From: Rhodobacteraceae bacterium F11138
GTDB taxonomy: Bacteria; Pseudomonadota; Alphaproteobacteria; Rhodobacterales; Rhodobacteraceae
Reading direction: 5' to 3'
Assembly: GCA_016521575.1 (NCBI GenBank)
Contig: JAEKDP010000017.1
Span: 1 to 33,554 of the forward strand
Length of the DNA: 33,554 bases
Shown: in pieces, positions 1,717-23,951 of the stretch
Position numbering within the stretch: position 1 is the stretch's first letter
How the letters are laid out: each line of letters starts with the position of its first letter
The notes under the pieces: generated by a model
Seen by the model: only the letters and a program-made list of their open reading frames with translations
The model's database searches: none
What the model was told of the DNA's origin: nothing
Program-made: the position numbers and the translations under genes

Positions 1717-1773
1717 TATCCAAGCTGCAAAACTATCCGAAAAGGTGGGACCTCTTCAGCGGTATGAAGTAAG

Positions 1774-1792
1774 CGGTGTGTCGTTCACACCG
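1774..1792. repeat. short perfect inverted repeat
   Basis: CGGTGTG and CACACCG are separated by five bases (TCGTT) and could form a 7-bp stem. It overlaps the stop codon of the adjacent transposase-like fragment. No U-tract follows on either strand, so I do not call it a terminator. Confidence 0.5.
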
Positions 1793-1949: not shown

Positions 1950-2035
1950 AGTGGTCCCTCTCTCATTGAACCCCCACTATAAACGATCACCCTCAGGTTT
2001 TGCCCACCCCCTTGAGTTCCCCATCTCACAATTAA

Positions 2036-3728: not shown

Positions 3729-3760
3729 AATTAAGGGCTACGCGACAGCGGGGGGCCCGC

Positions 3761-6198: not shown

Positions 6199-6761
6199 TA
6201 TACGTCTCCGTTCGGCGGCAACAGCAAGTCATCGAAGGGCAAATCGTATATGGCGATCATGGCCAAGACGGCACACAGGCCGATCAGCACAGCACGCAGC
6301 GAGAAACGTCCCTCGAGCAGTGAAATCGTGCTGGTAATGGCGAATGTACAACCAACGGCAAACCCGAGATACTTCCAGGGCGCGGCATCCCGAAGCAATC
6401 GGTATTCCTGTTCCATGCCAGTCAGAAGGTTGGACACCAGGACAGCAATTGGACCGACAAACAGCATCATCATGAAGGAGAGGACATAGACAGCGAACAG
6501 GAGTCCGGCAAACCGAAGTGCAAGAAAGTCTATGGGCTCCTGAGGCTCGTCTCGTGTCCCGCCAAACACCAACAGGAACAATCCGCCAATCAGAACGAAA
6601 ACGCCTGCGATCGTGGGGGCAAACGCATCGCCAACGGAAACCTGGCGCCGCACCTGAACAGTGTATCCACTATCAACATCCAGTGGCACCCAGACGAACA
6701 CCAGAAGTACGGCAAAGAGTAAGAAAAATGCACCAATCTTTTGGTCTCTGGATAGCGACAT
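6198..6761 (-). CDS. tctB: tripartite tricarboxylate transporter small permease TctB
   Basis: A 187-residue protein with four apparent membrane helices (IGAFFLLFAVLLVFVWVPL near the start, then FAPTIAGVFVLIGGLFLLVF, a YVLSFMMMLFV helix and a C-terminal pair), as expected for the small TctB subunit. I chose ATG at 6761 (MSLSRDQKIG) over the in-frame GTG four codons earlier, because a GGGGG ribosome-binding stretch sits about 11 bases upstream of the ATG. Lies between tctC and tctA and overlaps the tctA start by one base. A hairpin with a U-rich tail separates it from tctC. Confidence 0.88.
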   Translation of the reverse strand: MSLSRDQKIGAFFLLFAVLLVFVWVPLDVDSGYTVQVRRQVSVGDAFAPTIAGVFVLIGGLFLLVFGGTRDEPQEPIDFLALRFAGLLFAVYVLSFMMMLFVGPIAVLVSNLLTGMEQEYRLLRDAAPWKYLGFAVGCTFAITSTISLLEGRFSLRAVLIGLCAVLAMIAIYDLPFDDLLLPPNGDV

Positions 6762-6781
6762 TTCGAAACGCACCCCCGAGT

Positions 6782-6809
6782 GGGAAAAGAGGCCCCGATT
6801 GCTCAGGGC
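6782..6809 (-). terminator. hairpin with U-rich tail between tctC and tctB (attenuator)
   Basis: In the transcript of the minus strand GCCCUGA (6809-6803) pairs with UCGGGGC (6798-6792), with one U-G wobble, around a GCAA tetraloop. CUCUUUUCCC follows. Position and shape fit a partial intrinsic terminator that would give more of the binding protein than of the permeases. Confidence 0.65.
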
Positions 6810-6818
6810 TTGTCCAAG

Positions 6819-7772
6819 TTACTGCGACGCGGCTTCCAGCAGTGCCCGGGAGCTGACAAGATCGTCCTGCATGAAGGCGTCGAGCTCGACTCCAGACGCG
6901 GTGGCCGGCCCGCCGAACGCCCGGTCAACCAACGCGCCTGCTTCGGTTTCCGGATCGCTGACCACGGCGATGATCGCGTCGGAAATGGCTTGGCGGGCCT
7001 CGTCTGGAATGCCTGCTGGTGCGGCGAAGATGAACCGGCCATTTGACGGGAATTCAAGACCACGATCCAACAGGAGCGGCGCATCGGGCGACTGGTCAAG
7101 CGGCTCGGAAATTGCCGAGGCAAGATTGACCAGGTCACCCGCAGCAACACCTTTGCCCTGGATACCGGCTACAAAGCCCATATCGACATCCCCTGCTGTA
7201 ATAGCATCCAGAACGGCTCGGCCGCCGCGCAGGCTCACGATGTTGAAATCAACGCCGTTTGCCTCGCCTAGCAGATAGGCCATGTCGGCCAATTGCGGTC
7301 CTGCGACCCCGAAGCTGAGTTGCTCGCCGTCCTGGGCGGCCGAAAAGGCATCGTCGATTGTCTTCCAGCCGCGCGATGCGTCGGCGACAACACCCATCTG
7401 AAATGCAGCGGTGGTCGCTAGCGGAGTGTAGTCGTCCAAAGATAGCCCGGCACTAGGCGAGGCCTCCATGACGTAGGTGAAGACCGTCGACACGGCCATC
7501 CCGATCACGGTGCCATCCGCCGGAGCATCCTTGAGCGCGATAGCCATGTTCAGGCCGCCTCTGCCAGCAACCTCTTCGGGAATGATCTGCCAGCCGTGGC
7601 GCTTTTCAAGTTCCTCAGCGATCAGGCGCGCGTGTGTATCAGCACCGCCGCCTGCGCGGAACGCGACCATCATCTTGATGGGGCCTGGTGGCGTCCAATC
7701 CTGGGCAACAGTAGCAGTGGCAGCAAGCGCCACAACGCTTGCCGTCGCGAAGGTTTTCAATAGTGATTTCAT
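6819..7772 (-). CDS. tctC: tripartite tricarboxylate transporter binding protein TctC (Bug family)
   Basis: 317 residues, typical of Bug/TctC periplasmic receptors. A Sec signal peptide (MKSLLKTFATASVVALAAT, likely cleaved after AxA-type residues near 23) is followed by the mature start WTPPGPIKMMVAFRAGGGAD; the loop usually reads P-F-x-x-GG-x-x-D. The LRGGRAVLDAITAGDVDMGF segment matches the second-lobe ligand loop (usually GG...A...G-VD). First gene of the leftward tctC-tctB-tctA-usp operon and divergent from marR with 135 bases between. The MarR regulator is the obvious candidate for control. Its ligand cannot be read from sequence. Confidence 0.9.
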   Translation of the reverse strand: MKSLLKTFATASVVALAATATVAQDWTPPGPIKMMVAFRAGGGADTHARLIAEELEKRHGWQIIPEEVAGRGGLNMAIALKDAPADGTVIGMAVSTVFTYVMEASPSAGLSLDDYTPLATTAAFQMGVVADASRGWKTIDDAFSAAQDGEQLSFGVAGPQLADMAYLLGEANGVDFNIVSLRGGRAVLDAITAGDVDMGFVAGIQGKGVAAGDLVNLASAISEPLDQSPDAPLLLDRGLEFPSNGRFIFAAPAGIPDEARQAISDAIIAVVSDPETEAGALVDRAFGGPATASGVELDAFMQDDLVSSRALLEAASQ

Positions 7773-7798
7773 TTCTGTCTCCCTGTCCGGCTGCCGAG

Positions 7799-7872
7799 TT
7801 CAACTTGTGTTGGTTGACGCTTCACTTAATTTAATGACGGGAGCATTGCAGATTTCGGTTGAGCCTTCAACT
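7799..7872. promoter_or_regulatory. mirror-symmetric repeats between tctC and marR, candidate MarR operators
   Basis: TTCAACT (7799-7805) and GGTTGA (7812-7817) recur in mirrored order as GGTTGA (7857-7862) and TTCAACT (7866-7872), giving two inverted-repeat sites about 40 bases apart. The downstream one contains GTTGA-GCCT-TCAAC. An AT-rich TTAATTTAA lies between them. The location in the divergent promoter region suits MarR autoregulation; binding is inferred. Confidence 0.45.
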
Positions 7873-7907
7873 ATTTTCTGACAATCTTTGCTTCAGAGGC
7901 ATCAGAC

Positions 7908-8390
7908 ATGAACAACGAATCAAAAACATCGATCAATATAAAAGAAATCCCCCTTGATCAAAGGGTTAGCTTTCGCTTGCAGCGCATTGGCACATTGCTG
8001 ACCACTCAGGCAGTATCTCTTTTGAAGCAGGCCGATGGATTGACGCTGAACCAGTGGAGATTGCTGAGCTTTCTGAGTGAACGAAATTGTGGGTCGGCTC
8101 ACGAAGCGGGTCGACTCGGGCATATCGACAAGGCGACGATGAGCAGAGCCGCGGCGCAGCTGCTTGATCGCGGCCTGATCACCTCAGAAACAAGCGAGAA
8201 AGATCGGCGCGCGGCAGTTTTGCGCCTAACGTCAGAAGGGCGCGAAGTCGTGGAAGCAGTTGCCCCGATGATGATCTCACGCCAGGCCGAATTGATCGGT
8301 GCCTTGTCCGATGCCGAGCGCAAGAAATTGTTCAGAATACTGGACAAGTTGGAAACCGCGATTTCCAAATCCGAACAGGGGGCGACATGA
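7908..8390 (+). CDS. MarR-family transcriptional regulator
   Basis: 160 residues with the MarR winged-helix layout. Helical dimer segments flank a central DNA-binding part: LTLNQWRLLSFLSER (H2/H3), then HIDKATMSRAAAQLLDRGLI (recognition helix), and the wing ETSEKDRRAAVLRLTSEG with the conserved D-R-R-A. The family usually represses until it binds a small aromatic or phenolic ligand. It is divergent from tctCBA and its last four bases (ATGA, 8387-8390) overlap the sulfatase start, so it is co-translated with that gene and probably controls both directions. An AGAGG stretch lies about 9 bases upstream of the ATG. Confidence 0.92.
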   Translation: MNNESKTSINIKEIPLDQRVSFRLQRIGTLLTTQAVSLLKQADGLTLNQWRLLSFLSERNCGSAHEAGRLGHIDKATMSRAAAQLLDRGLITSETSEKDRRAAVLRLTSEGREVVEAVAPMMISRQAELIGALSDAERKKLFRILDKLETAISKSEQGAT

Positions 8391-9823
8391 CGAAAAACAA
8401 CCTTCTCGTGATTGTTTCTGACGAGCACCAAGCCCGCGCCATGGGCTGTGCTGGACATCCTTTTGTCAAAACCCCTCACCTCGATGCGTTGGCAGCAACT
8501 GGCACACGGTTTGAAACCGCCTACACGCCTTGCCCCATCTGCGTTCCGGCGCGGGCTGCTTTTGCGACTGGCAAGTACGTTCATCAAATTCGTCACTGGG
8601 ACAATGCCATGCCCTATACTGGCAGTGTGCCCGGTTGGGGCCACGCATTGCAGGCTAAAGGCGTATCAGTCGAGTCAATCGGCAAGCTCCACTATCGCGC
8701 AGAAGAAGATCCAGCAGGCTTTGATGTTGAGCACATTCCCATGATGGTGCACGGCGGCGTCGGAATGGTCTGGGCCGCGATACGAAATGAAGAAGAGCGT
8801 GTTGTGCCTTCTACCCGAATGCTGGGCAATTACGTTGGTCCGGGAACAAGCAAGTACATTGAATACGACCAGAACGTGACAGATCGCACGGTGGCTTGGC
8901 TTGCGGAACGGGCAGCGTTCAAGGATGATCGGCCCTGGTGTCTCTATGTCGGCCTGGTTGCTCCGCATTTCCCGCTGGTCGCCCCACAAGAATTCTATGA
9001 CCTCTACCCGGAAAACGAGATGCCGGATGTAAAGCTACATCCCTCTACTGGATACGCGCCTCACCCTTGGGTTGCCAAACAGAATATTGGAGCGGGCGAT
9101 TCAGAGGCGAAGTTCAGAGACGCTGCCGAGCGGCTGCGCGCATTTTCGGCCTATTATGGGCTGACCACATGGCTTGACCACAATATCGGCCGGATTGTCG
9201 AAGCCTTGCAAACTGCAGGTCTGACGGAGAAAACGAACGTGATCTATACATCAGATCATGGCGACAATCTCGGCGCGCGCGGTCAATGGGGTAAGAGCAC
9301 GTTCTACGAGGAGAGCGTCGCAATCCCGATGATCATGTCGGGTCCAGATATCGGCCAAGGTGTGTGCAAGACGCCGGTGTCCCTGTTGGATGTGTCTAAG
9401 ACGATCGTGGCTCAGTTTGATGCTGAACTTGACGGGACAGATGATTTGGCCAGCCTTCCCGAGATTGCGCAGGCCGGATCGAATGCCGAACGCGCGATCT
9501 TTAGCGAATATCACGCGGTGGGGGCTGTCACGGGTGGGTTCATGCTGCGCAAAGGGCGCTGGAAGCTTAACTACTATGTCGACTTCGAACCAGAGCTTTT
9601 CGACATGCAGAGTGACCCCGAAGAACTGCGCGATCTGGGCGCCGATCCAGAATACGCCACGATACGGAAACAGATGATCGCGGCCCTGCGCGAAATCGTC
9701 GACCCAGAGGCGGCAGACATCCAGGCCCACGCCGATCAGGCCGCCCTCGTAGAGCGTCTGGGCGGGATCAAGACTGCAAAACAGATGGGTCCAAAATCTG
9801 CGACGCCCCCGCCTTCGGGCTGA
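8387..9823 (+). CDS. type I (formylglycine) sulfatase
   Basis: 478 residues of the alkaline-phosphatase-like sulfatase fold. The N-terminal metal site is at SDEH (11-14), the formylglycine signature CVPAR has the modifiable Cys at residue 52 (PCPICVPARAAFATGKY), and the second metal site is TSDHGDNLGARGQWGK with Asp290/His291. These residues are what an active sulfatase needs; maturation requires a formylglycine-generating enzyme, not seen in this window. No signal peptide is evident (MTKNNLLVIV), so it likely acts in the cytoplasm on an imported sulfate ester. Start overlaps the marR stop. The family also contains phosphodiesterases and phosphonate hydrolases, so the ester type is not certain. 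Confidence 0.9.
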   Translation: MTKNNLLVIVSDEHQARAMGCAGHPFVKTPHLDALAATGTRFETAYTPCPICVPARAAFATGKYVHQIRHWDNAMPYTGSVPGWGHALQAKGVSVESIGKLHYRAEEDPAGFDVEHIPMMVHGGVGMVWAAIRNEEERVVPSTRMLGNYVGPGTSKYIEYDQNVTDRTVAWLAERAAFKDDRPWCLYVGLVAPHFPLVAPQEFYDLYPENEMPDVKLHPSTGYAPHPWVAKQNIGAGDSEAKFRDAAERLRAFSAYYGLTTWLDHNIGRIVEALQTAGLTEKTNVIYTSDHGDNLGARGQWGKSTFYEESVAIPMIMSGPDIGQGVCKTPVSLLDVSKTIVAQFDAELDGTDDLASLPEIAQAGSNAERAIFSEYHAVGAVTGGFMLRKGRWKLNYYVDFEPELFDMQSDPEELRDLGADPEYATIRKQMIAALREIVDPEAADIQAHADQAALVERLGGIKTAKQMGPKSATPPPSG

Positions 9824-9865
9824 TGGGCCAGTTCCGCCGCGCAAAGCCGACACTGGGGGACACGG

Positions 9866-10168
9866 ATGATCATTGAAGAGCGTATCTACACACTAAAAAT
9901 CGGCGCGTTGAAACAATATCGCGCACTTTATCTGAACGGAGCTCGACAGGTGCAGCGCCAGATTTTAGGGAACTGCCTCGGCTACTACTTCACCGAAGTG
10001 GGGACCCAAAATCAGGTTGTCCATCTTTGGCAATATGACAGCTTTGAAGAGCGATCCGTCCGCCGAGCGAAGCTTATGGAAAATCCCATATTTCAAAGCT
10101 TCATGCGCGAGTCCGCCCATTTGCTGGAATGTCAGGAAAACAGGATACTCAAGCCGCTTATTGAGTGA
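9866..10168 (+). CDS. NIPSNAP-family protein
   Basis: 100 residues with the dimeric alpha/beta-barrel pattern of NIPSNAP: IIEERIYTLKIGALKQYRAL at the start, a central GYYFTEVGTQNQVVHLWQYD and a final helix with the C-terminal strand ENRILKPL. The biochemical role of the family is poorly known; small members often sit in aromatic or amine catabolic operons. It begins 42 bases after the sulfatase stop behind a GGGGGA ribosome-binding stretch, so it is probably the last gene of the marR-sulfatase operon. Confidence 0.85.
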   Translation: MIIEERIYTLKIGALKQYRALYLNGARQVQRQILGNCLGYYFTEVGTQNQVVHLWQYDSFEERSVRRAKLMENPIFQSFMRESAHLLECQENRILKPLIE

Positions 10169-10294
10169 GCGAGTTCCAAACGAGATAGGCTGTGGCCTGC
10201 CCCCCCAGCTGGCCCCTCATTCACAACGAGAGTCTGCAGGTTGGTGCTCAGGGCACGGGGAAGAGAGCAATGCCGATGCATAGCGAATCTGTGT

Positions 10295-11200
10295 TCAAAT
10301 GTGCAGGTAGTGAGTTGTTGAAGCGCCGGCCTCCTGCGAAACTTCTTCTGCTACTCGACGCAAATCCGCGGCGACCGGACCATCAAAGCTGTCGTCCATG
10401 CCATTGACGGGACCCATAACCGTGATGCCCGCAATTATCTTGCCTCTATAGTCGAATATCGGTGCGGATACTGCTGTATGATCTGACAATAGCCCGCCTC
10501 GCGACCGGCTCATACCAATGCTCTTTATCGCCGAACGCAAGTCGCGCAGCGACGCGGCACTTCTTGGCGCCGGCATCTCCGGATCAACGTCTGCGATCAT
10601 CTGGTTCGTGTCGGAGAGCTCTCGATCGATATAGGGCTTGGTCACGTCATCCGGGAAATAAGCGAACATCACCCGGCCCAGGGCTGAACGCAGCACCGGA
10701 AGCACGCTACCGAGCCTGAGTTCCAGCAAGGTACGGCTATAGTGGCCACTAACCCTGTGGACGATTGTCGGACCTTGGTTACCCCACACCCCCATGAACA
10801 CACTTTGCCCATGTTCATTCGCGAAATCGTCTAATCTTGGCCGCGCCGCATCGAAGATATCGAACTGCTGGAGGCCGGCGATACCAAGCTGAAGCGTATA
10901 GGGTCCCAATCCATAATAGCCACTCTCTGGATCCTGGTGCACGACGCGCACCTCGATAAGACTGATCAAGTAAAACTGAAGCTTGCTGGACGCTATACCA
11001 GTCCCTTTGGAAATATCTCGAAGAGGAACCGCCTTGCCTTGCTTCAACAGGAAATCAATGATCTGGAAACCAGTCACGAGAGACTGATTACCCTTGCGTG
11101 TCGGTTTAGGACCGTTTTCGGTTTCTGCTGTTTCCAAATCGGCTCTCATTCGGGCATGCCTTTGATTATGGCTTATCATAGCTTCGTGCACTGAAACCAT
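10295..11200 (-). CDS. IclR-family transcriptional regulator
   Basis: About 301 residues. The N-terminal winged helix begins around SLVTGFQIIDFLLKQ with PLRDISKGTGIASSKLQFYL as the helix-turn-helix. The rest is the IclR effector domain, including GRVMFAYFPDD, the segment GGLLSDHTAVSAPIFDYRG and AGITVMGP near the end. The start is uncertain: ATG at 11200 is used, but ATG at 11149 (MRADLETAETENG) has a better AAAGG ribosome-binding sequence, and the extra residues are not family-typical. It lies 18 bases after the maleate isomerase stop, as the last gene of the nitrilase-dioxygenase operon, and probably controls that operon and the divergent kyn genes in response to a pathway acid. Confidence 0.9.
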   Translation of the reverse strand: MVSVHEAMISHNQRHARMRADLETAETENGPKPTRKGNQSLVTGFQIIDFLLKQGKAVPLRDISKGTGIASSKLQFYLISLIEVRVVHQDPESGYYGLGPYTLQLGIAGLQQFDIFDAARPRLDDFANEHGQSVFMGVWGNQGPTIVHRVSGHYSRTLLELRLGSVLPVLRSALGRVMFAYFPDDVTKPYIDRELSDTNQMIADVDPEMPAPRSAASLRDLRSAIKSIGMSRSRGGLLSDHTAVSAPIFDYRGKIIAGITVMGPVNGMDDSFDGPVAADLRRVAEEVSQEAGASTTHYLHI

Positions 11201-11218
11201 AATCAAAGTACCGCAGGT

Positions 11219-11974
11219 TCACGCGTATTTTCCCGAGAGCAGCATTCCACAGCCCGGAATGCGAGCCTCCAAGCCCAATTCTTTGAGCATTTGATGCGTG
11301 GTGGCAACAGACGCCGACAGCACGGGGATGCCGCATTCGTCTTCGACCTTCTGGATTGCTCCAAGTGATGGCATCTGCACGCATGCCGAAAGAACCAGCG
11401 CGTCGATGTTTTTGAGGTTCACCTGCTTGTATATCTCCATTAGGTTCAAGGGATCCTGCGCCGCCACTTCCAGATTATCCGGGATTTCGAGGGCGACGCT
11501 GTCAGAGACCTCGATGCCTTCAGCTTCGATGTACTCGGCCACCAGATTGGTCAGCGGGCGCATATAGGGCGTCACGATGGAGATTCGCGCCGCCCCCATG
11601 AGTTGAAGCCCGTCGATCAGAGCGCCAGCGGAACTGACGACAGGAGCCGGTTGTCCGTTGTCCACCGATACCTGATGCAAACGCTTCTGACTTTCGCGGT
11701 GATAGCCTTTATCCATCGACATGATCGCGACCAGACAGGCATAACCCATGACATCGACCGAGGCATCGGAAAGCTCCAGCGCACAACGGTCACTGTCTCG
11801 GTCCATCGCTTCCAGCTCATCTTTCGTGACCTTCTTCATCCGCATCCGGGATGAATGAAACGAAAATCTCTCGGGCAAAATGGCTTCGCGGGCACGCAGC
11901 ATCGCCGGAATCTCCCGCTCCATTGTCAGGTTCGACGACGGAACGATCTGACCGATCTTCAGGGTTTGGTGCAT
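11219..11974 (-). CDS. maiA: maleate cis-trans isomerase (Asp/Glu racemase superfamily)
   Basis: 251 residues, the length of bacterial maleate isomerases, which convert maleate to fumarate without cofactor. The N-terminal PSSNLTMEREIPAML is the family signature. Two cysteines lie in the expected places, C80 in YACLVA and C198 in SACVQMPSLGAI, 118 residues apart, the same spacing as the catalytic pair I recall for the characterised Nocardia enzyme (76 and 194). ATG 11974 is preferred over an upstream in-frame ATG because AGGAG lies directly before it and the extra residues would overlap the previous gene. It follows the FAH-family gene by 23 bases, which places it at the end of a maleylpyruvate- or maleamate-producing route. 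Arylmalonate decarboxylase is the main alternative. Confidence 0.85.
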   Translation of the reverse strand: MHQTLKIGQIVPSSNLTMEREIPAMLRAREAILPERFSFHSSRMRMKKVTKDELEAMDRDSDRCALELSDASVDVMGYACLVAIMSMDKGYHRESQKRLHQVSVDNGQPAPVVSSAGALIDGLQLMGAARISIVTPYMRPLTNLVAEYIEAEGIEVSDSVALEIPDNLEVAAQDPLNLMEIYKQVNLKNIDALVLSACVQMPSLGAIQKVEDECGIPVLSASVATTHQMLKELGLEARIPGCGMLLSGKYA

Positions 11975-11997
11975 GTTCTCCTGAATAGGCACTTGGG

Positions 11998-12915
11998 CTA
12001 TTCTCCGATCTTGACAACAGGGTTGCGCAGAACGCCAATCCCGTCGACACCGCATTCGATCACATCGCCCGGCCACATCCATTCCTGCGGATCACGCCCC
12101 GCGCCGACGCCTGCGGGCGTGCCGGTGGCGATAATATCGCCGGGCTCCAATGTGATGCCTGTGGAAAGATCGGCAATCAGCTCGTTGATGCGAAAAAGCA
12201 TGAACTTGGTGTTCGACCGCTGCTTTTCTTCACCGTTCTTGGTCAGCCAAAGATCGAGATCGTGCGGGTCTTCCACTTCATCGGCGGTGATGATCGCCGG
12301 CCCCATCGGCGCAAAGGTGTCCTGACCCTTGGAGAAGATCCACTGCCCGGCACGGCGGTTGTCGCGGGCAGAGATGTCGTTGAGCACGGTGTAGCCAAAG
12401 ACGTGGCTCATCGCATCTTCCTTGGCGATACGGGTCGCGCGCTTGCCGATTACCACGGCCAGCTCCACTTCCCAATCGAGTTGCTGCGTCATTGAGGCGT
12501 TGTGCTGGATCGCTTCGCCATCAGCGATAACGGCTGTGGGTGGCTTGGAAAACACAACGGGCTGCTGCGGCAGTTCGTCAGAAGTATCCAGGGCGCGGGC
12601 GCTTTCAGCGACATGCTCGGTGTAGTTCAGGCCGATGCCGAAGATGTTTTTGCGCGGGCGGGGGATCGGTGCCAAGAGACGCGCGTTGTCTTCATAAACG
12701 GCGACCCCGGCCGGGCGCGCGCCGTCGGTTTCGGCCAAGGCCCGTTCGATTGCCGCTTGGGCATCCGGGCCAAGGTCAATCAGGTCCAGCATCGTCGACG
12801 GTAGCACCGCGCCAACGGCATCGCCAAGATATTCAACATCGATGACCATGCCATCCTTTACGACGCCCAAGCGTCCTTCACCGTCCGCGCCATCACGGTA
12901 TGTCACAAGTTTCAT
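11998..12915 (-). CDS. fumarylacetoacetate-hydrolase-family enzyme (maleyl-/fumarylpyruvate hydrolase-like)
   Basis: 305 residues: an N-terminal cap domain (MKLVTYRDG...) followed by the FAH catalytic domain. Visible residues are NIFGIGLNYTEHVAES with catalytic-type His101, metal ligands Glu149 and Glu151 in DWEVELAVVIGK, Asp180 in YTVLNDISARD, and GQWIFSKGQDTFAPMGP for substrate binding. The family cleaves C-C bonds of 2,4-diketo acids. Behind a gentisate-type dioxygenase and before maleate isomerase it most likely cleaves maleylpyruvate or an amide analogue, giving pyruvate plus maleate or maleamate. Good ribosome-binding site (AGGAAAG). 21 bases after the dioxygenase stop. FAH proteins also include decarboxylases, so activity is inferred from context. 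Confidence 0.86.
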   Translation of the reverse strand: MKLVTYRDGADGEGRLGVVKDGMVIDVEYLGDAVGAVLPSTMLDLIDLGPDAQAAIERALAETDGARPAGVAVYEDNARLLAPIPRPRKNIFGIGLNYTEHVAESARALDTSDELPQQPVVFSKPPTAVIADGEAIQHNASMTQQLDWEVELAVVIGKRATRIAKEDAMSHVFGYTVLNDISARDNRRAGQWIFSKGQDTFAPMGPAIITADEVEDPHDLDLWLTKNGEEKQRSNTKFMLFRINELIADLSTGITLEPGDIIATGTPAGVGAGRDPQEWMWPGDVIECGVDGIGVLRNPVVKIGE

Positions 12916-12936
12916 GAGTTTCTTTCCTGTTCGCGT

Positions 12937-14061
12937 TTAGCCTTCGACGATCTGATGTCCGCCATTATCTTCAAGCCCCTGTTCTTTCCAGAAACCAAGT
13001 TTCTCCATCACCGGGAAATCATTAAACGAGAACAAGCACGCATCGTCACGGTCTTGCGTGTTGCAATGCTCGTGCCAGGTCCAGGCAGGCACGCAGAAGA
13101 TGTCGTGCTCGGACCAATCAAACCGCTTGCCTCCAATGATCGAATAGCCTGATCCCTTGGCAACATTATAGATCACGTTGCCGGTGTGACGATGTGCCTT
13201 GGTGTGCTGATTTGCCTTCAGCATCTGCATCGAGGCCCCCATGGTCATCATCGGATGCCCGCCTGTCTGCGGGTTGGTGTATCGCATGATCAGCCCGTCA
13301 TAGGGCGTGCCATCGCTGACCTTGGCGTAGTTCAGAAGCGCCTCATAGGTTGGCTCCCAAGAGTACTTCAGCAGCGGCGAATATGGTTTGTCCCACTTGT
13401 CGGTCTGCGGCAACAGCGCCGCACCACCATATGTCAGCGGGCTGTCATTCATCGGAACATCGGTGGACTGATAGTCATCCGGATGAACTTCGTAGAAGTT
13501 CGCCTCCAGGCAATTCGTCAGCGGGATATCGAGACCATCCTGCCAGATGCATTCGGTGCCAGTATCAAGAATGCCATGCTCGTGCCATGTGCCGTTCGGC
13601 GTCAAGACAAAATCATTGGCGCCAAGTTCCACCTTGTGGCCATTGACGATGGTGTAGGCACCCGACCCCTCCATGATGAAACGCAAGGCAGAAGCTGCAT
13701 GGCGGTGCGCGCCCGCCCTTTCCCCTGCTCGCATGGTTTGGATGCCCGAAAACAACCAGCCGCAACAAGCCGAGACGTCCTTGCGTTTGGGATTGCGCAG
13801 ATAGACCACACGGCGGCCTGCATCTTCGGGGCGCACTAGATCTATGGCGCGCAAGACTTCGCGGCGAATGTCTTGCCAGCGCCACAATACGGGTGCAGAT
13901 TTCGGTGTCGGCTCCCAAGGTTCAATGTCATTGGCCACGGTCCAAAGAGCGCCGGTTTCGATCTTGTCCAGATCCTCGTAGTACGCCTCCAGTTCCGGTG
14001 TGTCGCGCACACGCGCACGGCCCAGGACGTCGTCTTCGGGTTTGATCTCAGTTTGTGCCAT
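12937..14061 (-). CDS. gentisate/salicylate 1,2-dioxygenase-type bicupin ring-cleavage enzyme
   Basis: 374 residues with two cupin domains. The N-terminal cupin carries AHRHAASALRFIMEGSG and THE-type WHEH: His119, His121 and His160 are the iron ligands, at the same numbers I recall for the salicylate 1,2-dioxygenase of Pseudaminobacter. Arg127, His162, Gly106 and Gln108 of the active-site set are also present, while position 104 is Phe rather than Trp. The C-terminal cupin keeps HRHTGNVIYNVAKG and WHEHC. Such enzymes split the ring between the carboxyl carbon and the neighbouring hydroxyl- or amino-bearing carbon. It is 17 bases after the nitrilase stop and behind a GGGAG ribosome-binding site. 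The actual substrate (gentisate, salicylate, 5-hydroxyanthranilate) is not readable from sequence. Confidence 0.88.
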   Translation of the reverse strand: MAQTEIKPEDDVLGRARVRDTPELEAYYEDLDKIETGALWTVANDIEPWEPTPKSAPVLWRWQDIRREVLRAIDLVRPEDAGRRVVYLRNPKRKDVSACCGWLFSGIQTMRAGERAGAHRHAASALRFIMEGSGAYTIVNGHKVELGANDFVLTPNGTWHEHGILDTGTECIWQDGLDIPLTNCLEANFYEVHPDDYQSTDVPMNDSPLTYGGAALLPQTDKWDKPYSPLLKYSWEPTYEALLNYAKVSDGTPYDGLIMRYTNPQTGGHPMMTMGASMQMLKANQHTKAHRHTGNVIYNVAKGSGYSIIGGKRFDWSEHDIFCVPAWTWHEHCNTQDRDDACLFSFNDFPVMEKLGFWKEQGLEDNGGHQIVEG

Positions 14062-14078
14062 GAGGCAAACTCCCTTGG

Positions 14079-15113
14079 TTATGGAATTTCGGTTTCGCCC
14101 GATTGTTCTTCGGCATCGGCTTGCTTCATCTCAAAAGGCGCGTGCCCATGGAAAAACGCAGGCGACTGCGGCTGTTGGTTCACTTGCAAATTGAATACGT
14201 CGAACCGATTGTAGTGCCCCGTGATGTCGTGCATCTGCTTGGGCTGGATACATTTGCCAAGGTCGATATCAGCATAGACGATGCCCTCGTCGTCGATCAG
14301 GCCGGGCACGACCTCGCGGCCATCCGGTCCGATCACGCCGGAATAGGCACTGGATCTGCGTTCAAGCAGGGCGCGTGCATCGGAACGGATATCTTCCATT
14401 GCCTGGATGATTTCATCCGACACGGTGGAAGTCGCCGTGATGGTGAACACCTTGCCTTCAAAGCTATGCGACATGGAGCGCAGCTTGATCGCCTCGGCCA
14501 TATCGTAGTCAGGCGGCGCCACAGGCAGCGATATATAGCTGGCGGTATGTACCAGCTCCCCCTGCGCCAGAAGCGAGAACCGCGCCAGCGTGTTTGTGTT
14601 CTCTCCACAGGCGAGGCTGCCAATCGGGCCGATCTCGGTGGCATGCACCTTCAAGCCCGAGCCGTCGCCGCCGGTCCACGTCAGCTTTTCTGCCCAGGTC
14701 GGGACCAGCTTGCGATGCTTGCCGACGACAGCGCCATCAGGTCCGATGAGCATCAGCGTATTGTAAAGCGCGCCCAGTGAAACCTGGCTGCGCTCGTTCA
14801 GACCAATCACCACATAACATTCGCTGGCCTTTGCCGCCGCCCGAATGGCGCCAATCTCCGGCCCGCCAGCAAAGACCGAAGCGCGAACCAGCTTGTCGAA
14901 CCAAGCGCCGCCCGTCACCGGATCGGTGATCCAGTTCCAATAGGGATAGCCGGGGATAAACACCTCTGGAAACACCACCAGCTTCGCCCCGTTTCGGGCC
15001 GCCTCCCCGATCAGGGCCGCGGCTTTGTCCGCCGTCTTTGCCGCATCCAGGAACACAGGCGGCGCCTGAACCGCAGCGACAGTGAAGGTCTTGAAGTTCA
15101 GGGATTCGTGCAT
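14079..15113 (-). CDS. nitrilase-family C-N hydrolase
   Basis: 344 residues, the length of branch-1 nitrilases. The catalytic triad is in place: Glu50 in VVFPEVFIPGYPYW, Lys135 in KHRKLVPTWAEKLTW and Cys169 in SLACGENTNTLARF. The C-terminal DITGHYNRFDVF motif is typical of true nitrilases, and the CGEN context is common in that branch. Enzymes of this type turn nitriles into acids plus ammonia; some also hydrolyse amides. It is the first gene of the leftward ring-cleavage operon, which makes it likely to act in the same pathway, either as an amidase on a maleamate-like intermediate or on a nitrile such as indole-3-acetonitrile. Family call is firm, substrate is open. Confidence 0.9.
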   Translation of the reverse strand: MHESLNFKTFTVAAVQAPPVFLDAAKTADKAAALIGEAARNGAKLVVFPEVFIPGYPYWNWITDPVTGGAWFDKLVRASVFAGGPEIGAIRAAAKASECYVVIGLNERSQVSLGALYNTLMLIGPDGAVVGKHRKLVPTWAEKLTWTGGDGSGLKVHATEIGPIGSLACGENTNTLARFSLLAQGELVHTASYISLPVAPPDYDMAEAIKLRSMSHSFEGKVFTITATSTVSDEIIQAMEDIRSDARALLERRSSAYSGVIGPDGREVVPGLIDDEGIVYADIDLGKCIQPKQMHDITGHYNRFDVFNLQVNQQPQSPAFFHGHAPFEMKQADAEEQSGETEIP

Positions 15114-15195
15114 GGGAAACCTAAGTGGTATGGAGAATATGTTATACGTTTCAACCTAAATCGACCGAGACACACCAGTCAATACAAAATAATTG

Positions 15196-15226
15196 TAGAC
15201 ATCCAAAATAATGACGTCTATCCAAA
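15196..15226. promoter_or_regulatory. repeats between nitrilase and kynA, candidate regulator site
   Basis: ATCCAAA occurs at 15201-15207 and again at 15220-15226, 19 bases apart, and TAGAC (15196-15200) is mirrored by GTCTA (15216-15220). The region lies in the 135-base gap between two divergent catabolic operons, a suitable place for the IclR protein to bind. No confident -10/-35 pair could be picked. Confidence 0.35.
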
Positions 15227-15248
15227 TGAGCAAAAGAGGAGTGTCAAA

Positions 15249-16031
15249 GTGTCTGCTCAGCCAACCGCGGCCCATTCAAAGGACCAGCATAATTACCAGG
15301 GTCACCTCAATCTTGACGTCTTGCTCAGTGCGATGCGTCCGGTGACGACCCATCCTGAAGAGCATATTTTTCTGACCACGCATCACTCGCTCGAGGTCTG
15401 GATGAAGCAGATCATTTTCGATCTGCATCGCGTCATTCAGCACCTGGACAACGACGAAGTCAGCCAGGCCAACTGGCTCTTGAAACGTCTTGGTGAGATC
15501 ATGCGATTGGCAGAGGCGCACTGGGTCGTATTGGAAACCATGTCCGCCGCGGATTTCGCAGAGTATCGAAGCCTTCTGACAGGCGCTTCTGGCATGCAGT
15601 CCCGTCAATTTCGAGAGATTGAGGTGATGTTGGGCCTGTGCGCGGTTGCAGATGATGAATATTCTGCTCGTGTCGAAAAGATGTGGCCTGGCTTGATTGC
15701 AGAGCATCCGAATACGCTGCGCCAAGCCTTCTTTGCCTATATCGAACGCCGCGGTCTGTCGTTGCTGGACGTGTACAAGGATCGCTGGGATCAACACGAT
15801 CTATTCCTTCTGGCCGAGCACGCGTTCGAGTTGGATCGGCGCTTCCACAGTTGGCGGCACAACCATATTCTCATGGTGCGTCGCCAAATAGGCATCCGCG
15901 CCTTGGGGACCGGTGGGACGTTCTTTGACGACTACCTGGCGAAGACCTTGCGGTACTATTTCTTCCCTGAGCTGTTCGAGTTTCGTAACGATCTCACCGC
16001 CCATATGGGTGGCGAGGTCAAGCCCGCCTAA
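15249..16031 (+). CDS. kynA: tryptophan 2,3-dioxygenase (heme)
   Basis: A 260-residue protein of the tryptophan 2,3-dioxygenase family, which opens the indole ring of tryptophan to N-formylkynurenine. Features are NLDVLLSAMRP, HIFLTTHHSLEVWMKQIIFD (substrate-side Phe and His), GMQSRQFREIEVMLG, and the heme-ligand region SWRHNHILMVRRQIG followed by ALGTGG. After GTGG the usual SSG is replaced by TFF, next to the loop that holds the substrate amino group. The frame is open back to 15108, but I choose GTG at 15249, which has AGAGGAG 8 bases upstream; longer starts would run into the divergent promoter and add atypical residues. First gene of the kynA-kynB-kynU-sulfatase operon. Confidence 0.88.
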   Translation: MSAQPTAAHSKDQHNYQGHLNLDVLLSAMRPVTTHPEEHIFLTTHHSLEVWMKQIIFDLHRVIQHLDNDEVSQANWLLKRLGEIMRLAEAHWVVLETMSAADFAEYRSLLTGASGMQSRQFREIEVMLGLCAVADDEYSARVEKMWPGLIAEHPNTLRQAFFAYIERRGLSLLDVYKDRWDQHDLFLLAEHAFELDRRFHSWRHNHILMVRRQIGIRALGTGGTFFDDYLAKTLRYYFFPELFEFRNDLTAHMGGEVKPA

Positions 16032-16046
16032 GGTGCAGCGCACAAG

Positions 16047-16934
16047 ATGATCCATCCTTTGCTTGAAGCCTCACTGAACCTTTCCCGGGAAGATCTGGAT
16101 CATCAGCTCTCTCCCAGCCTGACTGCCAAGGATGCCAATGCCGCCTTGGCAGGACAGATGACTGCAACCAAAGCGGCCCTTGTTGACAACCGCCACTGCG
16201 TCTCCCCTGATCTGGCCTATGGACCGCGTCCGCGCCAGCGGCTTGACATCTTCAAACCACTTGAAGCGGTCTGCCCACTGCCGTGTTTAATGTTCATCCA
16301 TGGGGGATTTTGGCAGGAGGGCTCAAAGGAGGTGTCCGGATTTGCGGCGCACAGCTTCACGAGTCAGGGCTGGGCCTATACATCCGTCGGCTACACGCTG
16401 ACACCCGAGGTGACACTGACCGAATTGACTGCAGAGGTACATGATGCGGTTGCATTCATTCACGCCAACGCAGCGCGCTTCGGCATAGATCCGAGCCGAA
16501 TCATCATCGCGGGACATTCAGCAGGTGGCCATCTGACTGCCAGCATTCTGACCGATCTGTTGGGAAAAGGTGTGGGCGACAAAATCGCAGGGGCCGTAGC
16601 AATCAGCGCTGTGGTCGAACTTGAGCCAATCGCAAAATCCTATGTCAACGATTTGACGCGAATGTCAGAAAGCGAGGTCGCAAACCTCTCACCCGCGCGG
16701 CTTCCCCCGCAAAGGGACGTGCCGGTTCATATCGTCGTCGGCGGCGACGAACCCGAAGCGTTTCAGTTGCAAAGCGATCTGTTGGCCGAGCATCTGCAGG
16801 GTCAGATTACAGACCTGACCTTTTGTCGCGCAGCGGGGCGCGATCATTTTGACATCCTAGACGTTCTTGCAGACCCAGAAAGTGAAACCTTTCAGACAAT
16901 CCTGAGCATGGCACAGCAGGCAGTGAACCCATGA
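16047..16934 (+). CDS. kynB: arylformamidase, alpha/beta-hydrolase type
   Basis: 295 residues of the alpha/beta-hydrolase fold. An HGGFW oxyanion motif (85-89) precedes the nucleophile elbow AGHSAGGHL with Ser158, and the probable catalytic His is His267 in GRDHFD. The layout matches the animal-type kynurenine formamidase/HSL-like group rather than the metal-dependent KynB cyclase-like group, so the symbol describes role rather than close homology. It should hydrolyse N-formylkynurenine, or a ring-substituted form, to kynurenine and formate. It lies 15 bases after kynA, and its stop overlaps the kynU start (ATGA at 16931-16934). Confidence 0.85.
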   Translation: MIHPLLEASLNLSREDLDHQLSPSLTAKDANAALAGQMTATKAALVDNRHCVSPDLAYGPRPRQRLDIFKPLEAVCPLPCLMFIHGGFWQEGSKEVSGFAAHSFTSQGWAYTSVGYTLTPEVTLTELTAEVHDAVAFIHANAARFGIDPSRIIIAGHSAGGHLTASILTDLLGKGVGDKIAGAVAISAVVELEPIAKSYVNDLTRMSESEVANLSPARLPPQRDVPVHIVVGGDEPEAFQLQSDLLAEHLQGQITDLTFCRAAGRDHFDILDVLADPESETFQTILSMAQQAVNP

Positions 16935-18169
16935 ATAAAATTTTCCAACGCGCCAAAGACCATGACAACAGAGACGCGCTCGCCGGGTTCAAGGAGCTGT
17001 TCCATGTGCCGGAAGGTGTGATCTATCTGGACGGGAACTCACTGGGCCTGATGCCCAAGACCTGTTCCGAGCGTGTCCGGGATGTCGCCCAAAACGAATG
17101 GTCCGAGGGGCTGATCCGCAGTTGGTCCGAGGCGGGGTGGTTCCATCTGCCAATCACCGTGGGCAATCGGATCGCACCAATAGTAGGTGCAGGTGAAAAC
17201 GAGATTGCCGTCGGTGATTCGACTTCTGTGAACCTCTTCAAGTGTCTGGCCGCCGCTCTCAAATTGCGCCCGGGGCGCAAGGTGATCCTCTCTGAAGCCG
17301 ACAATTTCCCCACTGATCATTACATCGCCAATGGTTTGGCGGGCATGATCGACGGATACGAGGTTTGCGATCTCAACCCGGGCGACGACCTTGCCGAAAA
17401 GCTGGATGAAAGCGTCGCGGTTCTGATCCTGAGTCACGTTCACTACAAAAGCTGCAGAATCCGGGACATTCCGATGATCAACAAGGCCGCCCACAAAAAG
17501 GGGGTATTGGTTCTCTGGGATCTGTCCCATACATCCGGCGCTGTCGAAATCAATCTCAAGGCAGATGATTGCGACTTCGCCGTCGGCTGCACCTACAAGT
17601 ACCTGAATGGGGGTCCGGGCGCGCCGGCCTTCGCGTGGATCAACCCACGGCTTCAGGATCAGATCGACCAGCCTTTGTCCGGCTGGATGGGCCATCTTGA
17701 CCCGTTCGCGTTCACGCCCGGCTATCGTCCGGCTGAAGGCGTGCGTCGTCTTGTTTGTGGTACGCCGCAAGTGTTGAGCCTGTCCACGCTCGATGAGGCA
17801 CTCAGGCTTTGGGAGAAGGTGGATCGCAATACCCTGTTTGCAAAGTCGCGGGCGATGACTTCCTTTTTCATCGGCGCGGTCGAAGAGGTCTGCGCCGATC
17901 AGCCATTGACGCTTATCTCTCCGCGTGACCCGGCAATCCGGGGCAGCCATGTCTCATTCGACTATGACAACGGCTATGGTACGATGCGCGCGCTGGCCGA
18001 ACGCCGGGTGATCGGCGACTTCCGCGCACCGCGCACCATGCGTTTCGGGTTTGCGCCACTCTATCTATCATTCGAAGACGTCGCTCGGGCGGTTGAACAC
18101 CTAAAACATGTTCTGGACGGTCAGGAATGGCAGCGCGCCGAGTTCAATATTCGCGGCGAGGTAACATGA
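16931..18169 (+). CDS. kynU: kynureninase (PLP-dependent)
   Basis: 412 residues, standard length for kynureninase. Family marks include YLDGNSLGLMPK near residue 32, DSTSVNLFKCLAAAL (cofactor phosphate region), LWDLSHTSGAV with Asp197 for the pyridine nitrogen, and the PLP lysine Lys223 in GCTYKYLNGGPGAP. It splits kynurenine to anthranilate and alanine; the family also accepts hydroxykynurenines. Start and stop both overlap neighbours by four bases (arylformamidase before, sulfatase after), so these three are tightly co-translated. That coupling is the main reason to think the sulfatase belongs to this pathway. Confidence 0.95.
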   Translation: MNKIFQRAKDHDNRDALAGFKELFHVPEGVIYLDGNSLGLMPKTCSERVRDVAQNEWSEGLIRSWSEAGWFHLPITVGNRIAPIVGAGENEIAVGDSTSVNLFKCLAAALKLRPGRKVILSEADNFPTDHYIANGLAGMIDGYEVCDLNPGDDLAEKLDESVAVLILSHVHYKSCRIRDIPMINKAAHKKGVLVLWDLSHTSGAVEINLKADDCDFAVGCTYKYLNGGPGAPAFAWINPRLQDQIDQPLSGWMGHLDPFAFTPGYRPAEGVRRLVCGTPQVLSLSTLDEALRLWEKVDRNTLFAKSRAMTSFFIGAVEEVCADQPLTLISPRDPAIRGSHVSFDYDNGYGTMRALAERRVIGDFRAPRTMRFGFAPLYLSFEDVARAVEHLKHVLDGQEWQRAEFNIRGEVT

Positions 18170-19788
18170 CAAACCCAAAGAACATCCTGTTCATCATGTG
18201 TGACCAGCTTAGGTTCGACTATCTGGGCTGTGCGGGCCATCCGACGATCCGCACCCCTAATATAGACGCTTTGGCGGCCAAGGGGGTGCGTTTTGACCGT
18301 GCCTATGTTCAGTCACCGATCTGCGGCCCCAGTCGCATGAGTTTTTATACCGGGCGCTATGTCATCAGCCACGGATCAACTTGGAACAACGCCCCGCTGC
18401 GCGTCGGTGAGTGGAATATCGGAGACCACCTGAACCCATTGGGCATGCGCACGTTACTGTGCGGGAAGACCCATATGAAGGCAGATGTTGAAGGGATGAA
18501 ACGTCTTGGCATCGCGCCCGATAGTGTGATTGGCGCAAAACTCTCGCAATGCGGGTTCGAGGTCTGGGACCGGCTGGACGGCGTTCATCCGGAGGGTGGA
18601 AAGAAACAACCGACACATTACAACGACTACCTCAACAGTAACGGCTATGAGGGTGAATATCCCGTCGCCCATTGGGTCAACGCAGTCGAGAGTGAGGAAG
18701 GCGCGGAACTGTCTGGCTGGCTGATGTCCAACTCGGGCAGACCGGCCCGGGTCAACAAAGAGGATAGCGAAACCGCATATACAGCGCGGCGCGCCCGTGA
18801 GTTCATAGAAAACGCCGATGATGATGCCTGGTGCCTTCATCTCAGCTTCATCAAACCCCATTGGCCCTATGTCGCACCCTCCCCCTACAACACGATGTAC
18901 AGCGTGAAGGATGTTGTCCCAGCGGTTCGCTCGGCGGCTGAAAAGATCGATCCTCATCCAGTGTTTGGAGCCTTTCATCAGCATCGCGTGTGCCAGAATT
19001 TCTCGCGGAATGAGGTGCGGGAAACGGTCATCCCGACCTATATGGGACTGATCTCTCAGATTGACGATGAAATCGGTGATCTGATGTCATGGATGGAGAC
19101 CACCGGACGGGCCAAGGATACCCTTATTGTCTTCACTTCGGATCATGGCGACTATCTGGGTGATCATTGGCTGGGAGAGAAAGAGCTTTTCCACGATCCC
19201 TCCGTGCGCATCCCACTGATCGTGGTCGATCCCTCGACGAAGGCGGATGCCACACGCGGTACCGTGAGCAATCATCTTGTCGAAGCGATCGACCTGCTGC
19301 CCACCTTTGTCGAAATCGCTGGCGGCAAAACCCCTTCGCACATTCTCGAAGGCCATTCCCTTTTGCCGCTGCTGCATGATCCAAATGCAGGCCCGCTGCG
19401 CAATGTGGCGTTCAGTGAATACGACTACTCCTGCCGTCTGGCGCGCAATCTTCTGGGGCGCGACATCCCTGATTGCAGACTGCAAATGGCCTTTGACGGT
19501 CGTTGGAAACTTATACGGGCAGAAGGCTTCCGACCGATCCTGTTCGACCTGGAAACCGACCCACATGAGTTGACCGACCTCGGAGACGACCCAAGATATA
19601 GCGCAGAGATCAATCGACTGAATGACGCACTGCTCAGCTGGTCGACGGCCTTTCACAACCGCATTACCCGATCTGATGCAGACATTGAGGCTTACACCGG
19701 GTCAGAATTTCACAATGGCGTTTTGATCGGATTCTGGGATGAGCAGGAACTGCAACGCGCCAAGGAACAAGGATACGGCGGCAACTGA
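18166..19788 (+). CDS. sulfatase / phosphonate monoester hydrolase-like enzyme
   Basis: 540 residues of the type I sulfatase fold. The first metal site is MCDQLRFDYLGCAGH, the formylglycine signature is CGPSR with Cys53 (SPICGPSRMSFYTGRY), and the second metal site is TSDHGDYLGDHWLGEK with Asp326/His327. The length and the CGPSRMSFYTGRY plus HGSTWNNAPL stretch resemble the phosphonate monoester hydrolase subgroup, whose members are promiscuous on sulfate and phosphate esters. ATG 18166 is used because ATGA overlaps the kynU stop; an in-frame upstream start would lie inside kynU. No signal peptide. Likely removes a sulfate (or phosphate-type) group from a pathway compound. Only modest resemblance to the sulfatase at 8387-9823 is visible, mainly the shared motifs. 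Confidence 0.88.
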   Translation: MTNPKNILFIMCDQLRFDYLGCAGHPTIRTPNIDALAAKGVRFDRAYVQSPICGPSRMSFYTGRYVISHGSTWNNAPLRVGEWNIGDHLNPLGMRTLLCGKTHMKADVEGMKRLGIAPDSVIGAKLSQCGFEVWDRLDGVHPEGGKKQPTHYNDYLNSNGYEGEYPVAHWVNAVESEEGAELSGWLMSNSGRPARVNKEDSETAYTARRAREFIENADDDAWCLHLSFIKPHWPYVAPSPYNTMYSVKDVVPAVRSAAEKIDPHPVFGAFHQHRVCQNFSRNEVRETVIPTYMGLISQIDDEIGDLMSWMETTGRAKDTLIVFTSDHGDYLGDHWLGEKELFHDPSVRIPLIVVDPSTKADATRGTVSNHLVEAIDLLPTFVEIAGGKTPSHILEGHSLLPLLHDPNAGPLRNVAFSEYDYSCRLARNLLGRDIPDCRLQMAFDGRWKLIRAEGFRPILFDLETDPHELTDLGDDPRYSAEINRLNDALLSWSTAFHNRITRSDADIEAYTGSEFHNGVLIGFWDEQELQRAKEQGYGGN

Positions 19789-23943: not shown

Positions 23944-23951
23944 GGGGCACC

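Follow-up and report, generated by a model that had tools for sequence, protein, structure and literature searches.

What substrate is served by a gene cluster in which a tryptophan-opening operon of the kynurenine type lies back to back with an operon for gentisate-type ring cleavage, in the company of two sulfatases? Such a cluster is found in a 33,554-nt stretch of DNA from Rhodobacteraceae bacterium F11138 (assembly GCA_016521575.1, contig JAEKDP010000017.1, positions 1 to 33,554 of the forward strand), hereafter called the window. On balance, its gene content and its relatives in other genomes suggest that the cluster serves to break down a 5-hydroxylated tryptophan, which probably arrives as an O-sulfate.

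In the proposed pathway TctABC would import the sulfated anion, and sulf1 and sulf2, both acting in the cytoplasm, would strip off the sulfate. A specialised tryptophan 2,3-dioxygenase (TDO) would then open the indole ring of 5-hydroxytryptophan, the arylformamidase would take off formate, and KynU would give 5-hydroxyanthranilate plus alanine. The bicupin dioxygenase gdo is predicted to split 5-hydroxyanthranilate between C1 and C2 to maleamylpyruvate, which would be an amide since C2 bears the amine. The FAH hydrolase would release pyruvate and maleamate, nit would convert maleamate to maleate and ammonia, and maiA would convert maleate to fumarate. All substrates named here, the place of desulfation in the order and control by the MarR- and IclR-family regulators are our reading of the gene set.

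Organization of the cluster

The genes are as follows, with coordinates in the window. Homologues are quoted from loci L027/L110 and L111, which lie on different contigs of one Rhodosalinus genome.

3761..4705, minus strand: universal stress protein-like open reading frame (ORF) at the end of the Tct operon; 33% match to L111:9875-10705 (Pfam Usp); start uncertain
4591..6198, minus strand: TctA transporter permease; Pfam TctA 324 bits; 41% homologue in L111, next to a tdo of the same clade
6198..6773, minus strand: TctB-like small permease, assigned by position; 1-nt overlap with tctA
6819..7772, minus strand: TctC periplasmic binding protein; Pfam TctC 49 bits
7908..8390, plus strand: MarR-family regulator; Pfam MarR_2 47.5 bits
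8387..9823, plus strand: sulf1 sulfatase, CVPAR (CxPxR) at residue 52; Pfam Sulfatase 139 bits; 53% homologue in L111
10295..11206, minus strand: IclR-family regulator; Pfam IclR_C 64 bits; 53% homologue after maiA in L027/L110
11219..11974, minus strand: maiA, maleate cis-trans isomerase; 330 bits to PDB 4fq7 maleate isomerase
11998..12915, minus strand: fah, FAH-family acylpyruvase, predicted maleamylpyruvate hydrolase; Pfam FAA_hydrolase 244 bits
12937..14061, minus strand: gdo, bicupin gentisate-type 1,2-dioxygenase, predicted 5-hydroxyanthranilate 1,2-dioxygenase; 837 bits to PDB 3bu7
14079..15113, minus strand: nit, nitrilase-superfamily C-N hydrolase, predicted maleamate (or maleamylpyruvate) amidase; Pfam CN_hydrolase 129 bits
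15249..16031, plus strand: tdo, non-canonical TDO, predicted 5-hydroxytryptophan 2,3-dioxygenase from clade and pocket analysis; Pfam Trp_dioxygenase 155 bits
16047..16934, plus strand: afm, arylformamidase of the alpha/beta-hydrolase (HSL/BD-FAE) type, role by position; Pfam BD-FAE 81 bits; 46% homologue between tdo and kynU in L111
16931..18169, plus strand: kynU kynureninase; TIGR01814 279 bits; 423 bits to PDB 1qz9
18166..19788, plus strand: sulf2 sulfatase, FGly-type motif CGPSR; Pfam Sulfatase 147 bits; 63% homologue beside tdo in L111

ORF and family scans found every gene named in a first-pass annotation of the window as an intact ORF on the strand given there, in tight operons with short gaps or overlaps. 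MarR-sulf1 and then tdo-afm-kynU-sulf2 run on the plus strand; nit-gdo-fah-maiA-iclR and TctC-B-A lie on the minus strand, the former divergent from the tdo operon. The tdo and afm genes are separated by 15 nt, afm and kynU overlap by 4 nt, and kynU overlaps the sulfatase gene; in the minus-strand operon the gaps are 21 nt (fah/gdo), 17 nt (gdo/nit) and 12 nt (iclR/maiA). The starts of tdo, sulf2 and maiA were chosen by ribosome-binding sites and homologues. The most likely tdo start is GTG 15249, with GAGGAG upstream and a nit-tdo gap of ~135 nt, and it replaces the start at 15108 given earlier; those of sulf2 and maiA are ATG 18166, which overlaps the kynU stop, and ATG 11974. The extent first assigned to the cluster, 8387-19788, proved too small. 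MarR (7908) and TctABC (4591-7772) belong to the unit as well, because L111 carries MarR-sulf1-Tct-sulf2-tdo-afm-kynU in one direction.

Family tests and conserved residues

The gene first called kynA does encode a member of the TDO superfamily, over the Pfam cut-off with 155 bits, but not an ordinary KynA, as it scores 156 bits against the TIGR03036 equivalog cut-off of 390.7. KynU is over the TIGR01814 cut-off (279 versus 246.4 bits). The gdo product falls below the equivalog cut-off of the gentisate 1,2-dioxygenase family TIGR02272 (296 versus 442.1 bits) and below that of NF049978, 5-aminosalicylate 1,2-dioxygenase MabB (272 versus 650 bits). It is an ortholog of PDB 3bu7, with 188 of the first 206 residues identical (~91%). 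In SDO numbering it keeps R83, Q108, R127, H119, H121, H160, H162 and D174, the positions of iron and carboxylate/5-OH binding, and has Phe at position 104, where SDO has Trp and the E. coli enzyme Tyr. According to PMC10306065, D174 of SDO binds the gentisate 5-OH, the S. pomeroyi enzyme is a bicupin with two ferrous centres, and 5-nitrosalicylate dioxygenase is inactive on 5-hydroxyanthranilate.

The best PDB relative of the FAH hydrolase is 8sky (208 bits), and the maleylpyruvate hydrolase 6jvv reaches only 114 bits. The two Cys of maleate isomerase are catalytic, and maiA keeps both Cys segments, YACLVAIM and SACVQMPS, as compared with 4fq7. Both sulfatases carry the FGly motif (CVPAR in sulf1, CGPSR in sulf2), they are only 28% alike, and no leader is obvious by eye in sulf1. 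No gentisate-forming gene was found among the scanned proteins of the window.

Two non-canonical TDO clades and their neighbours

The cluster TDO belongs to a rare clade, hereafter the first clade, which was found in 2/390 genomes of the host's order, 2/385 of its class and 1/398 of its phylum; these samples overlap, count the host each time and were searched at strict E-value limits. Five loci of this clade are known, i.e. the cluster, L027/L110, L111, L079 and L113. L027 and L110 share an identical 10-kb core, and L110 was dropped as a copy. In this locus of Rhodosalinus halophilus the tdo gene is divergent from nit-gdo-fah-mai-iclR, which is the layout of our cluster. L079, from a Rhodospirillales metagenome-assembled genome, has gdo-fah-tdo followed by a carboxylesterase gene. 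In L113 (genome G758) tdo is accompanied by a branched-chain-type ABC transporter, with kynU 8 kb off; the region 8617-19448 of this locus holds a RidA-like ORF beside the TDO, an aldo/keto reductase, an ABC amino-acid-type transporter and kynU.

A second non-canonical clade comprises seven loci, in Burkholderia (L038), Paraburkholderia (L046) and Pseudomonas gessardii (L071), plus L149-L152. L150-L152 were found by scanning the family to which the L046 genome belongs; 5/349 genomes matched, the L046 genome among them. In six of the seven loci an afm-tdo-kynU-amino-acid permease run precedes nit, gdo and fah, whose order varies. In L046 and L150-L152 the gene run includes mai as well; in L071 mai lies nearby on the other strand, and in L038, where a flavin-reductase-like match lies 2 kb beyond fah, it was not detected. 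No match to a 5-hydroxylase, CoA ligase or thioesterase was found in the stretch searched in six of the seven loci. Only in L029 does gdo accompany a canonical TDO, and this locus also has the 5-hydroxylase, ligase and thioesterase. A 5-hydroxylated starting amino acid would predict such a difference, seen here against a single contrasting locus.

We compared these loci with a canonical control of 37, made of 35 chosen TDO-match regions plus L109 and L029, with ~10 kb on each side, some shorter (L204 and L215 are cut by contig ends). The gdo gene is nearby in 9/12 non-canonical and 1/37 canonical TDO loci, with the reservation that five of the twelve (L027/L110, L038, L046, L071, L079) were first found through gdo itself, as was L029, the one of the 37. 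When only TDO-led finds are counted, gdo is near 4/7 non-canonical versus 0/36 canonical TDOs (p=2.8e-4), and near 3/6 versus 0/36 (p=0.0017) after the near-identical L151 and L152 are collapsed. The kynU gene is nearby in 9/12 versus 24/37. The first-pass annotation had named rare adjacency of kyn and ring-cleavage genes as a sign against its proposal; canonical kynA is indeed rarely near gdo, and the non-canonical clades often are. This adjacency favours a special, ring-hydroxylated tryptophan as substrate. As an observation on a canonical locus, L194 (G938) has two canonical-type TDO genes ~8 kb apart at 3416-14028, with kynU and two amino-acid permeases between and beside them.

The substrate pockets were compared in X. 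campestris numbering over 42 canonical rows (L109, L029, L118-L129, L155-L182), a set slightly different from the 37-locus control. Canonical TDOs have Y27 in 41, L28 in 41, Q56 in 42, F126 in 42 and H55 in 41 rows. The first clade has H27, H56 and M/L126 in 5/5 members, and keeps the TDO residues H55, R117, S124 and the GTGG loop in 5/5. The second clade has H28 and Q126 in 7/7, and H55 is replaced by T (6) or A (1); L129, a long-branched row counted as canonical, also has H28. By their spacing, we take Y24, Y27 and L28 to correspond to Tyr42, Tyr45 and Leu46 of the human enzyme. These three human residues belong to the neighbouring subunit's N-terminal segment, which forms part of the tryptophan side-chain pocket (PMC5071832). 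As read from the alignment, the two lineages tied to one ring-cleavage module differ from canonical TDOs at the same pocket regions, i.e. the substrate lid and F126. Our guess is that a lid histidine contacts the 5-OH.

The tree nests the second clade within the canonical enzymes (100/100) and sets the first clade apart (92/98, below the starred level); on the starred branches alone, the canonical label must change twice. The placement of the clades is unsure, because each stem is long and the program flagged possible long-branch joins.

The ring-cleavage module across genomes

We collected 88 gdo loci, namely the best 80 of 242 relatives plus 8 plasmid loci picked from 30 listed of 200 records; the host cluster was not counted and L110 was dropped. 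A gene (nit, gdo, fah or mai) was scored as present when its match reached 50% identity or more and covered at least 45% of the query, and loci cut by contig ends were retained, so that absences are upper bounds. Among the 88, fah is present in 75, nit in 64 and all four genes together in 59. L036 and L052 end too near gdo for the absence of nit to be judged. Among the nit-free contexts, parts of L014, L021 and L030 were scanned; L021 has a nitroreductase and an aldehyde dehydrogenase, and L030 a carbamoyl-phosphate-synthase small-chain ORF. L014, L015, L017 and L018 present a further context, in which gdo-fah occurs with neither nit nor mai and has a thioesterase and a cyclase-family gene as neighbours; L014 also has a glutamine-amidotransferase-like ORF, an acyl-CoA ligase, a thiolase and an SDR.

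An anthranilate-type gene, i.e. a 5-hydroxylase, IorA, TDO or KynU (a label set after the data were seen), is nearby in 52/64 loci with nit versus 2/24 without it. The figures are 16/27 versus 2/23 when 38 Bacteroidota-like loci are removed; these were picked out by hand on the strength of their titles, except that L045, whose title says Bifidobacterium, was included for its gene content. A C-N hydrolase would be needed for an amine-bearing ring, because C1-C2 cleavage beside the amine leaves an amide. With gene families assigned from L040, the 38 Bacteroidota-like loci have a 5-hydroxylase-type gene in 36, a benzoate-CoA-ligase-type gene in 37 and a thioesterase in 37. L040 itself (Flavobacterium, 2401-12782) reads flavin reductase-hydroxylase-CoA ligase-(GltS-like)-thioesterase-nit-gdo-fah-mai. 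This operon type is apparently for an anthranilate route via 5-hydroxyanthraniloyl-CoA and free 5-hydroxyanthranilate, or else for a salicylate-gentisate route. We provisionally equate the gdo-linked hydroxylases with 2-aminobenzoyl-CoA monooxygenase/reductase. The latter is reported to yield 5-hydroxyanthraniloyl-CoA when NADH is limiting (PMC3534580).

In several Rhodobacteraceae and a Shinella, gdo is accompanied by a thioesterase and IorA/IorB-like genes, and in other loci by kyn genes. PMC9613470 places IorA/IorB, isatin and isatinic acid in the breakdown of auxin to anthranilate in iad loci. We infer that 5-hydroxyanthranilate is the substrate that best unites the gdo contexts.

Sulfatases and import

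The sulfatases and the transporter are tied to the first-clade TDO by L111, which carries all of them in one run. The sulfatase link proposed at first thus recurs with a first-clade TDO in one further genome, and beyond that a sulfatase 54-57% identical to sulf2 occurs in 5/88 gdo loci with no first-clade TDO (L012, L016, L020, L089, L091). No 5-hydroxylase was found in the same stretch as the sulf2-like sulfatase in those five loci. The sulfatase in L089, on the megaplasmid of Ruegeria pomeroyi DSS-3, is 57% identical to sulf2. At 719-17757 this locus joins the 3bu7 gene to nit-fah-mai, Tct, sulfatase and thioesterase genes. In place of kyn genes it has omega-aminotransferase-like, StyD-like aldehyde dehydrogenase and IorA/IorB-like genes, and the megaplasmid also carries a 5-hydroxylase (66%). 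We speculate that this gene set would suit a serotonin- or hydroxyindole-type pathway.

Probable parallel routes in the host genome

Besides the cluster TDO, the host genome (28 contigs, 4.48 Mb) encodes a canonical one, which adjoins KynU on contig C26 (L109). Contig C28 (L108) encodes a full-length homologue of the NCBIfam 'bifunctional salicylyl-CoA 5-hydroxylase/oxidoreductase', over the cut-off with 1210 bits. Around it are a CoA ligase, an enoyl-CoA hydratase, an acyl-CoA-dehydrogenase-like protein, an SDR, a RidA-like protein, a weakly matching thioesterase (29-33%), IorA/IorB-like genes and a cyclase-like gene, which we take to be an anthraniloyl-CoA route of the Azoarcus evansii kind. 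The gdo of our cluster is the sole gdo-like match in the host genome at E<=1e-20. The cluster therefore looks like a second, parallel system, since the host has the canonical TDO-KynU pair, the separate C28 cluster and no other gdo-like match at that limit.

The absence of a linked 5-hydroxylase does not mean that the genome has none: this equation was rejected for G1107, G1108, G1109 and the host. Among seven genomes or records searched (for R. pomeroyi, the megaplasmid only), a full-length 5-hydroxylase is missing only in Ruegeria ANG-R (G1111).

Alternative explanations

Several observations weigh against a hydroxytryptophan pathway. L149, of the second TDO clade, is a lone tdo with no nit, gdo or fah neighbours. 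G758 has a first-clade TDO and kynU but no gdo ortholog in its genome (best match 38%), which speaks against a fixed TDO-gdo pairing; the first clade may have a different end in that genome. The nearest solved relatives of nit are true nitrilases (8uxu, 212 bits), and the idea that gdo always travels with nit was rejected, as none was found in 24/88 loci at the thresholds used. The residues of gdo were also rejected as a diagnostic for gentisate versus 5-hydroxyanthranilate, all being kept and position 104 being a mixture of F and Y. In addition, 3bu7 was deposited under the name gentisate 1,2-dioxygenase, and the hydroxylase of L040 matches the NCBIfam salicylyl-CoA 5-hydroxylase (973 bits, below the cut-off of 1078), whose product would, with the thioesterase, lead to gentisate. 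A 5-hydroxylase is also found elsewhere in the host (on C28) and in G1107, G1108 and G1109, the genomes of three second-clade TDO operons.

Some of these points would suit unrelated neighbours, with gdo, FAH (as a maleylpyruvate hydrolase) and maiA forming an ordinary gentisate pathway and the kyn trio and sulfatase serving something else. The deposited name of 3bu7 (GDOsp) fits this, GDOsp reportedly acts on gentisate, and the R. pomeroyi gene in L089 equals 3bu7 at 206/206 residues compared; the name salicylyl-CoA 5-hydroxylase for gdo-linked enzymes elsewhere and the nit-free loci fit as well, and divergent operons can serve separate pathways. However, the repeated co-location of gdo with two TDO clades, single-strand operons included, and the presence of nit in most gdo loci with no evident role in gentisate breakdown make this explanation unlikely. 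Another route would have the kyn trio make anthranilate from plain tryptophan, with the 5-hydroxylase, ligase and thioesterase-like protein of C28 supplying 5-hydroxyanthranilate in trans to gdo. The full-length hydroxylase with its ligase and weak thioesterase match on C28 is what such a supply would need, and the Flavobacterium and L029 operons join hydroxylase, ligase and thioesterase to gdo in cis. But the cluster on C28 comes with beta-oxidation-like enzymes of its own, the host already has a canonical TDO and KynU, and the altered TDO pocket and the sulfatases would be left unexplained. The 5-hydroxylase is near 0/12 non-canonical versus 5/37 canonical TDOs, a difference too small to decide, and taken together we consider supply in trans rather improbable.

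The same chemistry might also be entered elsewhere, e.g. by 5-hydroxykynurenine, by an N- or side-chain-modified 5-hydroxytryptophan, or by a compound that loses its sulfate only after ring opening. Sequence fixes neither the desulfation order nor the exact precursor, the two sulfatases differ widely, and R. pomeroyi joins the gdo module and a sulf2-like sulfatase to aminotransferase, StyD-like and IorAB genes instead of kyn. An amino acid is nevertheless indicated by the permease that travels with the second TDO clade and by KynU, which requires an alanine-type side chain, and we hold such other entries to be decidedly improbable. The hydroxytryptophan reading of the first-pass annotation is thus partly supported, by the special TDO-gdo linkage and by nit accompanying anthranilate-type genes, while gentisate and supply in trans stay live rivals. 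A dedicated route for hydroxytryptophan nevertheless accounts best for the genes present, their linkage and the evolution of the TDO.

A wider reading is put forward tentatively, as somewhat less than an even chance. Dedicated hydroxytryptophan 2,3-dioxygenases may have evolved at least twice from TDO, with changes at the same lid and F126, and may be coupled to 5-hydroxyanthranilate ring cleavage. The natural role of 3bu7 would then be to cleave 5-hydroxyanthranilate, which sulfated 5-hydroxyindoles would supply in marine bacteria, and serotonin-like amines perhaps in Ruegeria. If true, this would define a hydroxytryptophan branch of the kynurenine pathway and add it to bacterial tryptophan catabolism, assign genes to 5-hydroxyanthranilate ring cleavage, and revise what a dioxygenase of known structure probably does in the cell. 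Marine and soil bacteria that degrade 5-hydroxyindoles, whether sulfated or free, could then be recognised by marker genes; 5-hydroxytryptophan and perhaps relatives of serotonin would be among these compounds.

Other features of the window

Transposases bracket the cluster, ISL3 on one side and IS630 on the other. Beyond the IS630 element, at 21859-29639, is a separate cluster with a hydantoinase A/B pair, LysR, an M24 peptidase and a gamma-glutamyltranspeptidase; by NCBIfam the hydantoinase pair is caprolactamase-like and the peptidase ectoine-hydrolase-like, both below the cut-offs. Promoter-like matches are at chance level (6 versus 6.7 expected), terminator-like matches number 18 versus 11.9 +/- 3.9 expected, and no inverted repeats were found in the three intergenic gaps searched.

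Comparison with known systems

No description of the pathway was found in the literature searched by title and abstract opening, a search that most subscription papers fell outside. The combination of a specialised TDO with gentisate-splitting relatives was likewise not found described, and the closest report is Cain 1968. As cited in PMC4539516, in a passage that names no genes, Nocardia opaca degrades anthranilate via 5-hydroxyanthranilate to gentisate. The intermediate 5-hydroxyanthranilate is thus common to both routes, but there gentisate precedes cleavage, whereas in our cluster cleavage of the amine itself is proposed. With the gentisate pathway (3bu7 GDOsp) the cluster shares an orthologous gdo with the SDO/GDO iron, carboxylate and 5-OH residues kept; it differs in the extra C-N hydrolase of its operon, which suggests an amide product.

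The bacterial kynurenine-anthranilate pathway (KynA/KynB/KynU) has the same three reaction types, and the cluster kynureninase is over the curated cut-off. The cluster TDO, in contrast, is of a rare non-canonical clade, and the neighbouring operon is for gentisate-type cleavage instead of an anthranilate dioxygenase or anthraniloyl-CoA route. The 2-aminobenzoyl-CoA monooxygenase/reductase route of Azoarcus evansii resembles the Flavobacterium operon, where nit-gdo-fah-mai comes after a CoA ligase, a thioesterase and homologues of the salicylyl-CoA 5-hydroxylase type, provisionally equated with the Azoarcus enzyme; in the window hydroxylase, ligase and thioesterase are absent, and the hydroxyl is proposed to be already on the substrate. 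Finally, aerobic nicotinate degradation ends with maleamate, maleate and fumarate, and its amidase is of the isochorismatase type. The cluster resembles this end in its 4fq7-homologous maleate isomerase and in the proposed maleamate step, but its amidase would be of the nitrilase superfamily.

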